51,702 nucleotides of DNA, from the NCBI GenBank assembly GCA_937920275.1, contig CALGVD010000124.1, forward strand, positions 1-51,702, read 5' to 3'. Below, in pieces: positions 19,437 through 27,720 of the stretch (position 1 is its first letter; every line of letters begins with the position of its first letter). The stretch is from an uncultured Pseudomonadota bacterium (lineage in GTDB: Bacteria; Pseudomonadota; Gammaproteobacteria; Steroidobacterales; Steroidobacteraceae). Below the pieces are notes generated by a model. That model had not been told where the DNA came from, did no database searches, and saw nothing but the letters and a program-made list of their open reading frames with translations. Both the position numbers and the translations under genes were made by a program.

Positions 19437-20573
19437 ATGCCGCCACGAGTCGCGCGCCGTTCCAATCCGCTCCAGCGTGCCCGCCGCATCGTGGTGAAGG
19501 TCGGTTCCGCGCTGTTGGTCGATGGACGGACGGGTCGGCTCAATCGGGCTTGGCTCGAGACGCTGGTGGCCGATGTGGTTCGACTGCGCCGCCAGGGCAA
19601 GGAAGTCGTGCTGGTGTCCTCGGGGGCGATCGCGCTCGGGCGGCGCCACCTCGACCTGCCGCCCGGTCCGTTGCGCCTGGAAGAGAGCCAAGCGGCCGCG
19701 GCAGTGGGCCAGATCCGCCTCGCCCACGCCTACAAGGAACTGCTCGAGGCGCAAGGCCTGCCGGTCGCGCAGGTGCTGCTCACGCTGGAGGACAGCGAGC
19801 AGCGTCGTCGCTACCTGAATGCCCGAGCCACTCTCACGACGCTGCTGGCACATGGCGCGGTACCGGTCATCAATGAGAACGACACGGTCGCGACGGCCGA
19901 GATCCGGTATGGCGACAACGACCGTTTGGCGGCTCGTGTGGCGCAGATGGTGAGCGCGGATTGCGTGGTCTTGCTGTCGGACATCGATGGGCTCTACACC
20001 GCCGATCCCCACAAGGATCCGGGTGCGCAGTTCATCGAGCAGGTGGCGGAGATCACCCCTGAGATCGAGGCCATGGCGGGCGGTTCAGCCTCGGCGGTCG
20101 GCCGCGGCGGGATGACCACGAAGATCATCGCCGCGCGCATCGCCGTGGCTGCAGGCTGTCATTTCTGCATCGCCGCCGGTTCACCGCGTCACCCGGTGCG
20201 GCGTATCGAACAGGGCGGCCGCAGCACCTGGTTCCTGCCGACCGCGACGCCGGTGGCGGCCCGCAAGCAATGGATCGCGGGCACCTTGCGTCCCGTCGGT
20301 GCGCTGCATATCGACGAGGGCGCGCGTCGAGCGTTGCGCGCGGGCAAGAGCCTGCTGCCCGCAGGAGTGACAGCGCTGACAGGTCGTTTCGAGCGTGGTG
20401 ACACCGTGAGCGTGCTTGCGCCGGGGGGGCAGGAGGTGGCGCGCGGCATCGTCGCGTACGGTGACACCGACGCGGGTCGTATCCTCGGTCGGCGTAGCGC
20501 CGAGATCGCCCTGATGCTCGGCTATGCCGGTCGTGACGAGCTCATCCACCGCGACGATCTGGTGCTGCAATGA
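19437..20573 (+). CDS. proB: Glutamate 5-kinase
   Basis: The 378-residue enzyme phosphorylates glutamate, the first step of proline synthesis. The amino-acid-kinase domain shows [49 protein letters not shown] and [17 protein letters not shown]-terminal PUA domain (about 285-365, ...[15 protein letters not shown]) is present, as in the long ProB form that is inhibited by proline. Three in-frame ATGs occur at 19416, 19428 and 19437; I use 19437 because GAGG at 19424 is correctly spaced for it. The stop overlaps proA by ATGA. Confidence 0.93.
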
Positions 20574-21853
20574 CCGCCGATGGGACCGCGGCAGGCGAAC
20601 TCGGCACGCTCATGCGACGGCTCGGCGAGGCGGCGCTTGCCGCCCGGTCCGTTCTCGCAGCGGCGCCGCGGACGCAGAAGGACGCGGCTCTGTTGGCCGC
20701 CGCGGCGGCGCTGCGCACCCATCAGGTCGAGGTGCTCGCTGCCAACGCCCTCGACATGACGCAAGCGGAGCACAAAGACCTCTCGGCCGCGATGCTCGAC
20801 CGGTTGCGGCTCGACCCGTCGCGTCTCGAGGCGATGGCGCGTGGCCTCGAGGCCATCGCAGCCTTGCCTGACCCGGTCGGTCGGGTGCTCGAGGAGTGGC
20901 GTAGGCCGAACGGGCTTGCCATCGCCCGCATCGCCGTGCCGCTCGGTGTCATCGGCATCATCTACGAGAGCCGACCGAACGTGACTGCGGATGCGGGTGC
21001 GCTCTGCCTGAAATCCGGCAATGCCGTGATCCTGCGCGGCGGCTCCGAGAGCGTCCGATCGAGCGCTGCGATCCACCGCTGTCTGGTCGAAGGACTGCGT
21101 GCCGTTGGGCTGCCCGAGGCGAGCATCGGGCTCGTGCCGGTCACGGACCGCGCGGCGGTGGGCCATATGCTCTCCGGGATGACCGAGTACATCGATGTGC
21201 TGGTGCCGCGCGGGGGTAAGGGTCTGGTGAAGCGCGTTCAGGAAGAGGCGAGGGTGCCTGTCATCGGCCACCTCGACGGCAACTGCCATGTGTTCGTGGA
21301 CCGCGCCGCAGACCTGCCGATGGCGGTTGCGATCGTCCTGAACGCCAAGCTGCGCCGTACCGGCATCTGTGGGGCTGCCGAGACGCTGCTGGTCGATGAG
21401 GGTTGCGCTGCGACCCACCTCGCGCCCTTGGTGCACGCCCTGCTCGATGCAGGTTGCGAGGTGCGCGGTGACGCGGCGGCACAGCGGGTCGATCCGCGGG
21501 TGCGGCCCGCCACCGAAGAGGACTGGTTCACCGAATACCTCGATGCCGTGATCGCGGTGAAGGTCGTGGCCGGGCTTGATGCGGCGATCGCCCACATCGC
21601 CCACTATGGCTCTGCACACACCGAATCCATCGTCACGGAGGATGCGGCGGCGGCGGAGCGGTTCCTCGGTCGCGTCGACAGCGCCATCGTGCTGCACAAC
21701 GCCTCGACGCAGTTCGCCGATGGCGGCGAGTTCGGGATGGGTGCTGAGATCGGCATCTCGACGGACCGCTTCCACGCCCGCGGTCCGGTCGGGCTCGAGC
21801 AGTTGACCAGTTACAAGTACGTGGTGCGCGGCGCCGGCCAAGTGCGGCCCTGA
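20570..21853 (+). CDS. proA: Glutamate-5-semialdehyde dehydrogenase (gamma-glutamyl phosphate reductase)
   Basis: The 427-residue enzyme reduces gamma-glutamyl phosphate with NADPH, following ProB. Visible family marks are [27 protein letters not shown], the catalytic cysteine in [31 protein letters not shown] and the terminal [11 protein letters not shown]. It is translationally coupled to proB (ATGA). Its last 43 bases overlap the 3' end of the convergent MoaE-MoeB-rhodanese gene. Confidence 0.95.
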
Positions 21854-23430
21854 ACGCCGCCGCGCAACGAGTGCGCCGCGTGGATGCCTCGCTCGCGCAG
21901 CGCTTCGCAGGTGCTCCGGCTGCGCACGCCGCGGCTGCAGACCAAAAGATAGCGCCCTTCAGCCGGCAGGTTCCGTCCGGCCAGCATCTCCTCCATGGGG
22001 ATGCGGCGCACGAACCCGGGCAGCGGATCGGCTGCGCATTCGTCCGGGGCACGGATGTCGATCACCGAATAGCCGGCCGAGATGGCCTGCGCGAGATCGT
22101 CGAAGTCGAGTTCGAGTCCGGCGCCGCTGCCGGACGAAATCTTCGCCAAGGCTTGTCGGGTGTCGTGCAAGGCCATCGCCGCGCGGCCACAGGGACCGCC
22201 CTCGCAGCCTTGCGCACGCTTCGCGCGCACCCGCGTCATGCCGGTCTCGAGCAGGTTGACGAGCAGCACCTCGTCGCCGAGCCGTCCGGGCAGATCCAAC
22301 AGGATCTTCAGCGCCTCGAGCGCCTGCAGGCTGCCGAGGATGCCAGGCACCGGACCGAGTACGCCGGCTTCGGTGCAGTTGCCGACGATGCCGTCGCGCG
22401 TCGCCTGTGGCCATAGGCAGCGCAGGCAGGCGCTGCCGCGAGCCGGATCGACCACCTGCAGTTGCCCCTCGAACTGGTGCACGCTCGCGAGCAGCACCGG
22501 CACCGACAGTTCGTGCGCGAGGTCGTTGAGCAGGAACTTGGTGGCGAAGTTGTCGCTGCAGTCGATGATGAGGTCACAACCGGCAAGCAGCTGGGCGGCA
22601 TTGCCTGCATCGAGCCGCAGCCCGTGCGCTTCGATCTGCACCTCGGGGTTGAGGGCGCGGATCCGCGCCGCGGCGAGATCCGCTTTGGGTCGACCGCAAT
22701 CCGCGAGTGCGAACCAGGTCTGGCGGTGGAGGTTGGAGGCCTCGAGGCGATCGCCATCGATGACCACCAGCCGCCCGAGTCCGGCACCTGCGAGGTATTG
22801 CAGTACGGGTACGCCTAGCCCTCCCGCACCGATCACGGCGACCGAGCTTTCGCGCAATCGGGCTTGCCCTAGCGGCCCGACCTCCCGCAGCGCCATCTGC
22901 CTTGAATAGTCGGGGGTCGCTGGTGGCGAGTGATCGTGGGCATGGCTGTGATCATGGGCATGGCTGTGATCGTGCGGCTCGACAGCGCCCGGGGCCGCGG
23001 CGGCACAGCGCTCGCAATTCACCCAACCCGAATCACCGTCGACGTAATGCTCTTTTTTCCAGATGGGGACGCGGTGTTTGACCTCGTCGATGATCCAACG
23101 ACACGCGCGGAACGCCTCATCGCGGTGTGGGGCGGCGACGCCCACCCAGACCGCGAGCTCGCCGAGCGCCAGATCACCGATGCGGTGCACGCAACGCGCG
23201 TTGACGACCCCGAAGCGCGTGCAGGCCTCGGCCACGATCCGCTCCCCCTCGCGCAACGCCAGTGCCTCGAAGGCCTCGTACTCCAAGCGATGCACTGCAC
23301 GGCCTTCATTGAAGTTGCGCACCCAACCCTCGAAGGCCACATAGCCGCCGCAGGACGGATCGGTGAGCGTCTGCTGCAGGGCGGCCGCGTCGAGCGAGCC
23401 GGCGCTGAAGGCGAAGCGCGGCTCAGCCAC
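21811..23430 (-). CDS. Fused MoaE - MoeB - rhodanese (molybdopterin synthase large subunit, adenylyltransferase, sulfurtransferase)
   Basis: This 539-residue protein joins three enzymes of molybdopterin sulfur insertion. Residues 1-145 are MoaE ([12 protein letters not shown], catalytic lysines in VPIWKKEHY). A histidine-rich linker follows (about 152-168, [10 protein letters not shown]). Residues 175-430 are MoeB, with ATP loop GAGGLG (201-206), CSDNF (291-295), zinc pairs C335/C338 and C409/C414, and the conserved cysteine C352 in NCTEAGVLG. Residues 440-530 are a rhodanese with catalytic C498 in CSRGVRS. It would adenylate MoaD, load it with persulfide sulfur and build the dithiolene. MoeB-rhodanese fusion is known (human MOCS3); the added MoaE is unusual. 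GTG 23430 overlaps the mobA-moaD stop by 8 bases. Confidence 0.93.
22933..22974. repeat. 18-base tandem repeat, about 2.3 copies
   Basis: The unit ATCGTGGGCATGGCTGTG at 22933-22950 is repeated with one change at 22951-22968 and begins a third time. On the minus strand it encodes the repeating HAHDHS of the histidine-rich linker between MoaE and MoeB. Unit loss or gain would lengthen or shorten the linker in frame. Confidence 0.85.
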
Positions 23431-24259
23431 CGGCCACCGGCGGGATGAAGACCACGTGATCGGCGGCCTCGAGCGGGTGGTCCCACTCGGCGAAGTCGCC
23501 GTTGATCGCGACCCGAAGCATCTCGAGCGGCAGCGTGAATCGATGCCGCGTCTGCAGTTCGAGATAAAGGTCACGCGGCGTGCGCGCAGCGCTCTGCAGC
23601 GATTCACGCGCGCAGCCCGCTTGCTCGCGCAGCAGCGCGAAGTACTGGATGTCGAGCGGACGGGTCTTGGCGGTCGGATCGAGGTCCTGCATGGCTTGGC
23701 GATATTCCGTCGTGGAATTGATGTTGTCGAGGGCGTTCGATCGCGGCAGATCGATGAGGCATGCGTCGTGGGCGAGCAGGAACTTCCGCGGACAGCGTTT
23801 GTCGGCTGCGACGAAGTCCGCCAACAACGGCTCGCACTGGGGTTCCCAGATGGCGCACAGCGGTTCCGGCAGACCGTCGTAGGCGGAACGGAATGCGGTC
23901 GCCACCCGCGACGGGTCGCGCCCGGCGATCAGCGCCCGCAAGGTGGAGGCATCGAGGAAGGGCAGATCGCAGGCCAACACCAGCCATGCCGCAGCCGGCC
24001 GGGTCCGCAGCGCCGCGAGGATCCCGGCGATCGGTCCGACACCTTCGGTGCCGTCGATCACTTGAGCATAGCGTGCCCGCACCGGATCCGATATCTGGTC
24101 GGCGCGCACCGACACGAAGTTCGGCCCTGCGACCTCACCGAGCAGATCGAAGGCGACCTGCAATTGGTCGCGACCATGATATGCGAGCAGGGCCTTGTCA
24201 CGGCCCATCCTCGTGCTGCGCCCGCCGGCGAGCACCAGGCCGCGCAACGCCCCGGTCAT
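23423..24259 (-). CDS. Fused MobA - MoaD (molybdenum cofactor guanylyltransferase and sulfur carrier)
   Basis: The 278-residue protein has MobA in residues 1-195: the nucleotidyltransferase signature [13 protein letters not shown] (10-22), VGPIAGI and the metal motif CDLPFLD (97-103). A complete MoaD occupies residues 200-278, with ubiquitin-like [21 protein letters not shown] and the ending [10 protein letters not shown]. The terminal Gly-Gly is what MoeB adenylates and sulfurates, and it is free here at the C-terminus, so the carrier should work while attached. MobA adds GMP to form the guanine-dinucleotide cofactor, implying MGD-dependent enzymes elsewhere. Overlaps moaC by ATGA and the next gene by 8 bases. 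Confidence 0.93.
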
Positions 24260-24801
24260 CGTCGTGCTGCCTGCCGTCGGGGTCCGTGGTCGCGTTTGCC
24301 ACCACGCTTGACGATCAGCCGGATCGGGCCGATGCGTATGTCATGCGACAGCGCTTTGCACATGTCGTAGATCACAAGTGCCGCGATCGTCGCACCGGTC
24401 AAGGCCTCCATCTCGACACCGGTGCGGTGCGTGGTGCGCACCGTGCATCGGATGACGATGAGTCCGCGACGCGGGGTGTCGATGTCGAGCTCGCAGTGCT
24501 CGAGCGGCAACGGGTGACAGAACGGGATCAGTTCATGGGTGCGCTTGATGGCCTGCACGGCGGCGATGATGGCGGTATCGAAAACCGGCCCTTTTCGGGT
24601 GCGGTGTCCGCTCGCGGCGAGCGCCTTCGCGACTTCGGCGGGCAGCGTCACCCGCGCTTCGGCCACCGCTTCGCGTGCGGTGACGGCCTTGCCTGAGATG
24701 TCGACCATCGTCGGCCGGTTGCGCGCATCGAGGTGGGTCAGCCGGGCAGGGGCTGCGCGAGGCTTGCGTGGGCGTGCGGTAGTAGGGCGTGTCGCGGCCA
24801 T
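24256..24801 (-). CDS. moaC: Cyclic pyranopterin monophosphate synthase accessory protein MoaC
   Basis: The 181-residue protein completes the first step of molybdopterin synthesis, converting the MoaA product to cyclic pyranopterin monophosphate. Family motifs are [49 protein letters not shown], and [19 protein letters not shown] with the catalytic lysine in YDMCKAL. About 33 basic, low-complexity residues precede the MVDIS core; ATG 24801 leaves one base after the moaA stop. The longer open frame upstream lies inside moaA and is not used. Confidence 0.93.
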
Positions 24802-25880: not shown

Positions 25881-27089
25881 TTACCAACGATGCAATCGGG
25901 CGACGAAGCCCTTGGGGTGGGTGTGGGGGCCGGGCGGCAGTTCGACCACGCCGTCGGTGCCGGTGAGGGCGGCATAGTCGCCCGATCCGTTGGTGGTGCG
26001 GGGCTCAGCCCAAGGGCGGCCCCAGTCGTCGATCATGATCTTGACCGGCATGAAGAACGCGAGCGCAGCGCGCACTTCGACCTCTGCAGCGAGCGCGATC
26101 CGTTCGGGCGCTCGTGGCGGTGTTTCGCCCATCGCGGCATAGAGCGCGGGCAACACGTAGCGCGCCAGGCAGACGAGCGTCGAGACAGGGTTGCCGGGCA
26201 GCGCGAACACGGCGGTGCCGGTCGGCGCGATGCCGAACCAGAGCGGCTTACCAGGTCGTTGCGCGACCCTGTGGAACACCTCGCGCACCCCGATCCCGGC
26301 GAGCGCCGCAGGCACGAGGTCGAGACGACCGGCGGAGACGCCGCCCGACAGGATGAGCACATCGTGGGTCTGTACGAGCACGCGCAACCGGGTCTTGAGC
26401 GCACCGAGCTCATCGGGCAGATGCTCGTCCGCGATGCGCTGGAAACCTTGACGACGCAAGGCCGCGACGATGCCGTAAGCGTTCGAGCGGCGTACCTGGT
26501 GCGCCAAGATCGGTTCACCCGGCTCGATGATCTCGTTGCCGGTCGACACGACGCTGATGGTCGGTTGGGCACTGACGCGGATGCGCGGCATGCCGGCGCC
26601 TGCGGCCACCGCGATCTCGGGTGCGCCAAGCCGTACACCGTTGGAGAGCAGCAGCGCCCCCTGCCGGATATCGCTGCCACGGCGGTGGATGTTCTGGCCG
26701 ATCGCGATCCGCAGTTCCGGATCGAAGGACACGGTTTGGGGTTCGATCCCGGAAAGACGCGACTGCTCGACCGGTATGACGGCATCACAACCGGCCGGCA
26801 GCACGGCGCCGGTCATGATCTCGATGGCGTGCTGCGGCGAGGCGAGGGACAGCGGCGGATCGCCGGCGGCCTGCATCGCTTGGACGAGGAGCGGCTTCCC
26901 GCTCCGCAGGCCCGCGGTGGAGACGGCGAAGCCATCCATCGCGACACGATCGAACGGCGGCTGGTCACGCTCGGCGTAGATGTTCTCGCGCAGCACGGCG
27001 CCGACGCACTGTACGAGCGGCAGCGACTCGATCGGTAGGCAGGTGACTTGCCCGGCGATGAGGGCGTCGGCTTCGACAGGAGAGATCAT
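25881..27089 (-). CDS. moeA: Molybdopterin molybdenumtransferase MoeA
   Basis: The 402-residue protein inserts molybdate into adenylylated molybdopterin. It shows PPFDRVAMDGFAV, AIEIMTGAVLPAGCDAVIPVEQ, the MPT-binding core VVSTGNEIIEPG and ILSGGVSAGRLDLVP, and VFALPGNPVSTLVCL, followed by the C-terminal beta domain. It is the first gene of the cofactor operon. No mogA or moaB gene is in the window, so the adenylylation step must be encoded elsewhere. ATG 27089 is chosen; a GTG at 27107 is in frame. Confidence 0.94.
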   Translation of the reverse strand: MISPVEADALIAGQVTCLPIESLPLVQCVGAVLRENIYAERDQPPFDRVAMDGFAVSTAGLRSGKPLLVQAMQAAGDPPLSLASPQHAIEIMTGAVLPAGCDAVIPVEQSRLSGIEPQTVSFDPELRIAIGQNIHRRGSDIRQGALLLSNGVRLGAPEIAVAAGAGMPRIRVSAQPTISVVSTGNEIIEPGEPILAHQVRRSNAYGIVAALRRQGFQRIADEHLPDELGALKTRLRVLVQTHDVLILSGGVSAGRLDLVPAALAGIGVREVFHRVAQRPGKPLWFGIAPTGTAVFALPGNPVSTLVCLARYVLPALYAAMGETPPRAPERIALAAEVEVRAALAFFMPVKIMIDDWGRPWAEPRTTNGSGDYAALTGTDGVVELPPGPHTHPKGFVARLHRW

Positions 27090-27146
27090 GCAAGCAGTGT
27101 AGCCCACCCACCCGTGCGCAGATCGATGGGGCTCGGCGGAAGGACG

Positions 27147-27643: not shown

Positions 27644-27720
27644 GCGTCCGTAGCTCAGTTGGATAGAGCATCAGGCTTCGAACCTGAGGGTCGGGAGTTC
27701 GAATCTCTCCGGGCGCGCCA
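27644..27720 (+). tRNA. tRNA-Arg (anticodon TCG)
   Basis: The 77-base gene folds as a full cloverleaf. Acceptor strand GCGTCCG pairs with CGGGCGC (one G-U), the D arm is AGCTCAGTTGGATAGAGC, the anticodon stem TCAGG/CCTGA holds loop CTTCGAA with anticodon TCG at 27678-27680, and the T arm contains GTTCGAATC. CCA is encoded. It should read CGA-type arginine codons. Confidence 0.97.

Follow-up and report, generated by a model that had tools for sequence, protein, structure and literature searches.

In the biosynthesis of the molybdenum cofactor (Moco), the E1-like enzyme MoeB adenylates the sulfur carrier MoaD, a rhodanese gives the sulfur, and the MoaD thiocarboxylate enters MoaE, where the dithiolene of molybdopterin forms, guanosine monophosphate (GMP) being added later, after metal insertion, by MobA. 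Several of these parts are found joined in known systems. MOCS3, Uba4 and the mycobacterial MoeBR and MoeZR all carry a MoeB domain followed by a rhodanese and activate a ubiquitin-like sulfur carrier, MoeZR and MoeBR having been reported to sulfurate MoaD in vivo (PMC3227635). MoaX, the MoaD-MoaE protein of Mycobacterium tuberculosis, joins the parts of molybdopterin synthase with MoaD N-terminal in the chain, and is described as having to be cleaved after the Gly-Gly of MoaD (PMC4326299). The Moco fusions reported for Archaea, some of which occur in bacteria too, include MoaD-MoaE, MoaD-MoeB, MoaD-MoeBR, MoaC-MoaE and MoaC-MoaB (PMC11237513). In addition, NCBIfam holds models for MobA/MobB (PRK14490) and MoaC/MobA (PRK14500) proteins, in which MobA is fused to another Moco protein.

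The DNA analysed here, hereafter the window, comprises 51,702 nucleotides (contig CALGVD010000124.1, assembly GCA_937920275.1) of an uncultured gammaproteobacterium of the family Steroidobacteraceae. A preliminary description, made from the letters alone, had read it as encoding five Moco functions in two genes overlapping by 8 bases, and both points were borne out, the first by Pfam and NCBIfam domains and by residues, the second by the coordinates of a mobA-moaD and a moaE-moeB-rhodanese fusion gene (Table 1). Compared with MOCS3, Uba4, MoeBR and MoeZR, the window chain has MoaE ahead of the E1. In contrast to MoaX, in which the Gly-Gly is buried, MoaD is here the last domain of its chain and no cleavage is needed, and the partner of MobA is MoaD instead of MobB or MoaC. 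The archaeal set likewise fuses syntenic Moco genes and, as far as that account extends, likewise holds no MoaA-MoaC fusion; MoaE-MoeB and MobA-MoaD are not among the fusions it names, and its MoaD-MoeB places a domain after the carrier (PMC11237513). The five parts look ordinary and are commonly separate proteins, the packing being what varies. As argued below, the two chains very likely form a single, working molybdopterin sulfur-transfer system tethered by fusion, a reading that makes no claim on the size of any benefit.

In the MoaE-MoeB-rhodanese chain, Pfam matches above cut-off were obtained for MoaE (residues 12-120, 120.5 bits) and ThiF/MoeB (residues 175-409, 234 bits). The rhodanese domain is divergent: the window protein gave no Pfam rhodanese match at 0.001 or 0.01, and it is among the misses of PF00581, which at 0.01 is found in 39 of 43 aligned triple-chain proteins. 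A search with the C-terminal 115 residues hits rhodaneses of solved structure (1wv9, E 1.6e-6), and the NCBIfam MoeZ model covers residues 174-527, rhodanese part included, with a score under its cut-off; all 25 NCBIfam models listed for this chain score below their respective cut-offs. The AlphaFold2 model (P0001; mean predicted local distance difference test (pLDDT) 88.2, predicted template modelling score (pTM) 0.63) is confident within domains, and Foldseek aligned it to ThiF, MoeB, Uba4 and MoaE. The alignment to Uba4 (6yub) extends over 409 columns with a root-mean-square deviation of 19.5, which reflects a different placement of the domains.

The 43 aligned proteins (the window protein and 42 relatives) were hand-picked from 89 fused frames listed. 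Identical in all of them are R38, H102, R103, K118 and K125 of MoaE, G203, G204, G206, N233, R236, Q237, K249, D293, C335, C338 and C352 of MoeB, and D458, R460, C498, G501 and S504 of the rhodanese, with K126 kept in 41 and R503 in 42. The catalytic lysines of MoaE correspond to E. coli K119 and K126. MoeB-type E1 enzymes are marked by an ATP-binding GxGxxG motif, a catalytic Arg and Asp and a conserved Cys, and bind zinc through two Cys pairs; the GxGxxG motif and the first zinc CxxC (335/338) are present in all 43. The initial statement that every catalytic residue is visible holds for these positions of MoaE, MoeB and the rhodanese, and needs a reservation for the second zinc Cys pair of MoeB, which is non-canonical (see below).

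MoaE and MoeB are connected by a linker that is probably flexible, since the confidence of the P0001 model drops there (Table 1). From C139 to D174 this stretch measures 13 to 69 residues in the 43 proteins and is His-rich in most. Fused chains mostly show CxxC and then His-rich repeats (median of 8 His; at least four in 67 of 78). MoaE tails without an adjoining moeB are shorter (median of 13 residues), with at least four His in 26 of 68, and those with an adjacent moeB reach that number in 5 of 9. As the tails found elsewhere are shorter and partly His-rich, the linker resembles a MoaE tail that has been expanded; a role in metal binding is a guess.

The MobA-MoaD chain shows Pfam matches above cut-off to NTP_transf_3/MobA (residues 7-164, 109.3 bits) and ThiS/MoaD (residues 204-278, 52 bits), and its AlphaFold2 model (P0002; mean pLDDT 92.4, pTM 0.75) is confident within domains. 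The motif of MobA is LAGGxSxRMxxDK; in an alignment of 32 MobA-MoaD proteins, taken from 74 frames listed, L10, G12, G13, S15, R17 and M18 are invariant and D21 and K22 are kept in at least 90%. The window's MobA half scores 93.0 bits with MobA models against 38.9 with MocA, none at its cut-off; its top model is PRK14490 (167.7 against a cut-off of 354), PRK14500 giving 151.1 against 606. The free Gly-Gly end attributed to MoaD is indeed kept: the chain ends in VAGG, followed by the stop, in a frame separate from that of MoaE, so that a MoaX-type single chain of MoaD and MoaE is absent from the window. The same VAGG closes all 74 frames listed, duplicates included (7 reach the locus edge at their 5' end and that of L159 is a fragment behind a stop inside MobA), and the PPVAGG end is conserved in the 32 aligned proteins.

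The fused genes are real and intact and, to judge from their sequences, very probably functional. No stop codon between the domains of either chain was found in the reading frames of the window, and the chains are also intact in the closest relative (L013, 94-96% identical), which speaks against the stop or frameshift that would have undone the initial proposal. A record from another collection (L094) holds a 545-amino-acid chain identical to that of L013 and was not counted as a second witness. All five domains are under purifying selection, the ratios of nonsynonymous to synonymous substitution (dN/dS) against L013 being 0.055 for MoaE, 0.147 for MoeB, 0.313 for the rhodanese, 0.312 for MobA and 0.111 for MoaD; these ratios are rough because dS against L013 is just about 0.1-0.18. 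The records of L013 and L017 are titled Klebsiella pneumoniae metagenome-assembled genomes (MAGs), though their moa loci group with the lineage of the window, and the titles are probably wrong.

Separate moaD, moaE, moeB or mobA genes elsewhere in the genome would equally have spoken against the proposal, and a profile search of the host assembly (2.7 Mb, 137 contigs, 99.75% complete) found no such redundant genes. The single MoaE match, the single ThiS/MoaD-family match and the one ThiF match above cut-off are all the fused ones, a further ThiF match being weak (24.3 bits) and below cut-off. MobA is less firm. NTP_transf_3 gave nine matches, the window's MobA and eight others: the strongest of these (C136, 107.7 bits) is best matched by MocA models, under their cut-offs; five are best matched by GlmU, MurU, KdsB, IspD and GlgC models, all as fragments and under the model cut-offs; and two weak ones (C46 and C73, 43.6 and 27.1 bits) are without an assigned name. 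The fused MobA is probably the only MobA of the genome. Molybdoenzyme-type matches are present (four to PF00384, one of which may be a NADH dehydrogenase subunit, four to PF02738 and one to PF00174), and therefore molybdopterin should be needed. Intactness, purifying selection and single copies together imply that the fused pair should be the working system, and that it is a working molybdopterin system is judged almost certain.

The pair turned out not to be one of a kind, its packing recurring across a bacterial family. One match spanning MoaE to rhodanese was found in 52 of 296 genomes of the order. The family of the window accounts for 50 of these (89 genomes sampled) and the other families together for 2 (207 genomes). 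In three of the 52, a stop divides the stretch into separate neighbouring genes (G058, G223 and G267, loci L135, L139 and L138); four more family genomes gave two-piece matches that correspond to one frame (G167, G170, G227 and G245, loci L147, L151, L145 and L146), and in G253 the match is split across two contigs. At a level of E 1e-80, a set of 370 genomes drawn from the class yields two: the genome of the window itself and, from the same family, G010. Wider relatives (103 found in genome contigs, 80 kept) place triple chains beyond the family in Rhodanobacter sp. C01 (L034), Melainabacteria/Obscuribacterales (L036, L038), Hydrogenedentota (L037) and Bdellovibrionota-type records (L041, L043-L045, L047). 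MoaE-MoeB-rhodanese together with MobA-MoaD is an inherited variant of known fusion types, common in its family, and neither fusion was named in the literature turned up by exact-phrase and broader searches. Two further records deserve mention: a Krumholzibacteriota chain (L042:5995-7491) has an in-frame stop inside its MoeB domain, and a Verrucomicrobiales MAG (L084:5076-5900) carries a MobA-MoaD fusion, perhaps of independent origin, with MoaE in its own frame.

The junctions between the moa genes were scored in 155 unique loci (170 before duplicate removal). The order moaA-moaC-mobA-moaD-moaE-moeB-rhodanese, for the genes present, is kept in 150 of them (exceptions: L037, L038, L074, L075 and L076), and moeA, where it occurs within 4.5 kb, is found on the upstream side in 71 loci and on the downstream side in 6. 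MoaA and MoaC are adjacent in 113 loci and fused in none (42 not scored); MoaC and MobA are fused in 6, adjacent in 116 and apart in 7 (26 not scored); MobA and MoaD are fused in 64, adjacent in 71, one of these (L159) through a stop inside MobA, and apart in 1 (19 not scored). MoaD and MoaE are adjacent in 149 and fused in none (6 not scored), the MoaD frame ending in Gly-Gly in 148 of 149, with a partial MoaD match (L059) as the exception. MoaE and MoeB are fused in 77 and adjacent in 10, of which 8 remain once L018 (linker interrupted by a stretch of N) and L042 are set aside, and 68 loci show no moeB within the stretch examined; MoeB and rhodanese are fused in 84 (71 not scored). Besides MoeB-rhodanese, fusions thus join neighbours at three junctions, MoaC/MobA, MobA/MoaD and MoaE/MoeB. 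The MoaC-MobA fusion occurs in two distant groups, one of genus g18 (L124, L132, L137) and one Bdellovibrionota-type (L044, L045, L047), both of which also carry MoaE-MoeB-rhodanese. On a locus tree built from MoaC, MobA, MoaD and MoaE of 144 loci, the number of changes is 6 at MobA/MoaD, 11 at MoaE/MoeB (L018 and L159 masked) and 2 at MoaC/MobA. The moaD/moaE boundary appears to stay open in evolution, because the C-terminus of MoaD is its active end; the absence of fusion there gains its weight from the fact that MoaX needs cleavage, not from the counts.

The history of the MoeB half was followed on a tree of 123 domains (75 fused, 9 adjacent, L018 among them, and 39 stand-alone). One change parts the 84 operon-borne from the 39 stand-alone domains, with a Shimodaira-Hasegawa-like approximate likelihood ratio test (SH-aLRT) value of 93, short of the 95 at which a branch is starred. 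The stand-alone domains were hand-picked, 36 of the 39 coming from the order to which the window belongs, and a single origin covers that order at most. Many independent origins of MoaE-MoeB were considered and rejected: repeated loss of the MoeB half fits better than many gains because the locus tree requires 11 changes against 3 on the MoeB tree. Both trees are quick ones, and placement is unsure on the long branches outside the family. A PF00899 search covering 60 of the family's 89 sampled genomes was combined by hand with the states of the moa loci, which for G037, G048, G179 and G215 were taken from the absence of a strong match, the locus itself being unread. The moa locus carries moeB in 41 of the 60 and lacks it in 19; each of the 19 has a ThiF protein encoded separately and scoring 236 bits or more (interrupted in G118). 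Among the 41, a further ThiF above cut-off is absent from 25, which include 9 of 9 from the genus of the window. Genus g6 shows in many genomes an additional stand-alone E1-rhodanese lineage (L209, L210, L211) with about 205-219 bits against ThiF.

In the mechanism proposed for the fused pair, the MoeB domain would adenylate the Gly-Gly end of the MobA-borne MoaD, and the fused rhodanese, through C498 and perhaps with C352 of MoeB, would give persulfide sulfur to form the MoaD thiocarboxylate. MoaD would then travel across the flexible His-rich linker to the MoaE domain, which occupies the opposite end of the MoeB-rhodanese chain, and there the dithiolene of molybdopterin would be made, MobA later putting GMP on Mo-molybdopterin for enzymes of the dimethyl sulfoxide (DMSO) reductase family. 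Fusion would raise the local concentration of the two partners of MoaD and fix their ratio, and MoaD, being in the other chain, would keep its tail free. The homologues of MoaE and MoeB are dimers, which invites the guess of a 2:2 particle. Whether tethering matters for catalysis is a question on which the chances appear about evenly divided. The fusions themselves were probably built stepwise from an operon of constant order, through lost stops between neighbours.

Several observations weigh against the tethered system as a reading of these data. The window protein served as the query for retrieving the loci, a choice that biases the set towards fused ones, and the 149 unfused moaD/moaE junctions are not independent, a handful of events lying behind that absence; MoaA/MoaC, moreover, is likewise never fused (0 of 113). 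Of the 43 aligned proteins, 30 have two Cys in the second zinc region of MoeB, 10 have a single Cys and 3 lack Cys there altogether, and the window's own pair is oddly spaced (CX4C, CEGGPC). MobA and MoaD work at non-consecutive steps, which the fusion joins all the same, MobA acting after metal insertion. Among the 77 MoaE-MoeB-fused loci, mobA and moaD are separate and adjacent in 30 (fused in 40, not scored in 7), and these, with the 19 of 60 genomes without moeB at the locus, show that tethering is dispensable. Finally, additional ThiF proteins occur in 16 of the 41 genomes whose moa locus includes moeB.

The alternative that survives best holds that the fusions are neutral, a stop having been lost between overlapping neighbours, and that the chains work as separate proteins would or are cut after translation. 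It denies the benefit alone, not the function, and its chances are put at somewhat below even. The joined genes are neighbours in operon order, fused and split states alternate among relatives, and in four loci (L032, L135, L138, L139) moaE and moeB lie in the same frame with a stop followed by a start 4-7 bases on, so that only a small step parts the fused from the separate state. As the fusions follow gene order, a lost stop explains them as well as channelling does, and for MobA-MoaD the order of the genes is a better explanation than a succession of reaction steps. Against neutrality, MoaE-MoeB-rhodanese is kept in much of the family, one MoeB lineage travels with it, and the fused chains far more often carry the His-rich stretch than MoaE tails without moeB.

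A stronger version, which we consider unlikely, has MoaD shuttling between MoeB, rhodanese and MoaE within one permanent particle, from which molybdopterin is passed to MoeA and to the particle's own MobA. The complementary chains, their single copies and the clustering with moeA, moaA and moaC would suit such a factory, and the late action of MobA and the 30 loci with separate mobA and moaD speak against it. Its most elaborate form is improbable: a stable 2:2 particle with MoaD as swinging arm, a His-rich CxxC linker binding a metal of the pathway, and molybdopterin handed straight to MoeA and MobA, which would spare the family the separate adenylylating protein MogA/MoaB, apparently absent from most of its searched genomes. 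No separate MogA/MoaB was seen in the host genome, whose only PF00994 match is MoeA; a single match above cut-off is the rule in 29 of 31 family genomes, the second match lying in a 216-amino-acid frame in G249 and in a 414-amino-acid frame of MoeA length in G161, and no paper on a missing MogA turned up in a literature search. That assembly or sequencing joined separate genes has next to no probability: the draft is in 137 contigs and some loci are broken (L018, L042, L159), but recurrence rules it out, MoaE-MoeB being one frame in 77 of 155 unique loci, one of which, with MoaE-MoeB-rhodanese, belongs to a named genome (Rhodanobacter sp. C01), and MobA-MoaD in 64.

The features of the locus are collected in Table 1; the GTG start of moaE-moeB-rhodanese was picked from homology. 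On the other side, a gene on the forward strand (20570-21853), presumably proA from its sequence, converges with moaE-moeB-rhodanese, the 3' ends overlapping by 43 bases (21811-21853). A Moco riboswitch was looked for in the window and none was found at the Rfam gathering threshold, the sole match being a tRNA gene (27644-27717, forward strand).

Table 1. Coordinates (positions in the window) of the two fusion genes, their parts and the neighbouring Moco genes.
Feature	Coordinates	Strand	Remarks
mobA-moaD fusion gene	23423..24259	-	278 aa (amino acids), ATG start, ends Val-Ala-Gly-Gly
Parts of the MobA-MoaD chain			predicted MobA guanylyltransferase, residues ~5-190; short joint, 191-200; MoaD sulfur carrier, 201-278
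TGA stop of mobA-moaD	23423-23425	-	
moaE-moeB-rhodanese fusion gene	21811..23430	-	539 aa, GTG start 23428-23430
MoaE domain (residues 1-138), molybdopterin synthase catalytic subunit	23017..23430	-	Pfam match; K118 and K125 invariant
Linker (residues 139-172)	22915..23016	-	CxxC, then His-rich stretch; pLDDT <50 at 141-165
MoeB domain (residues 173-410), E1-like MoaD adenylyltransferase	22201..22914	-	Pfam match; adenylation motif; CxxC 335/338; C352
Rhodanese domain (residues 429-530), C-terminal	21841..22146	-	Active-site loop CSRGVRS; C498
Overlap of moaD stop codon and moaE GTG start	23423..23430	-	8 bases; junction without fusion in 149 loci
moaC	24256..24708	-	Upstream neighbour; 4-base overlap with mobA
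moaA	24803..25867	-	Upstream; start is one of four candidate ATGs
moeA	25881..27107	-	Upstream; only PF00994 match in genome

In summary, the fused pair represents a naturally occurring form of molybdopterin sulfur transfer in two proteins, handy for structural and kinetic work. It also allows a comparative test of a rule, with fusions at several junctions of the operon and none seen at the active C-terminus of the carrier, MoaX, which needs proteolysis, being the contrast. Finally, it directs attention to an E1-rhodanese lineage travelling with MoaE, a stand-alone enzyme being present where that lineage is missing.

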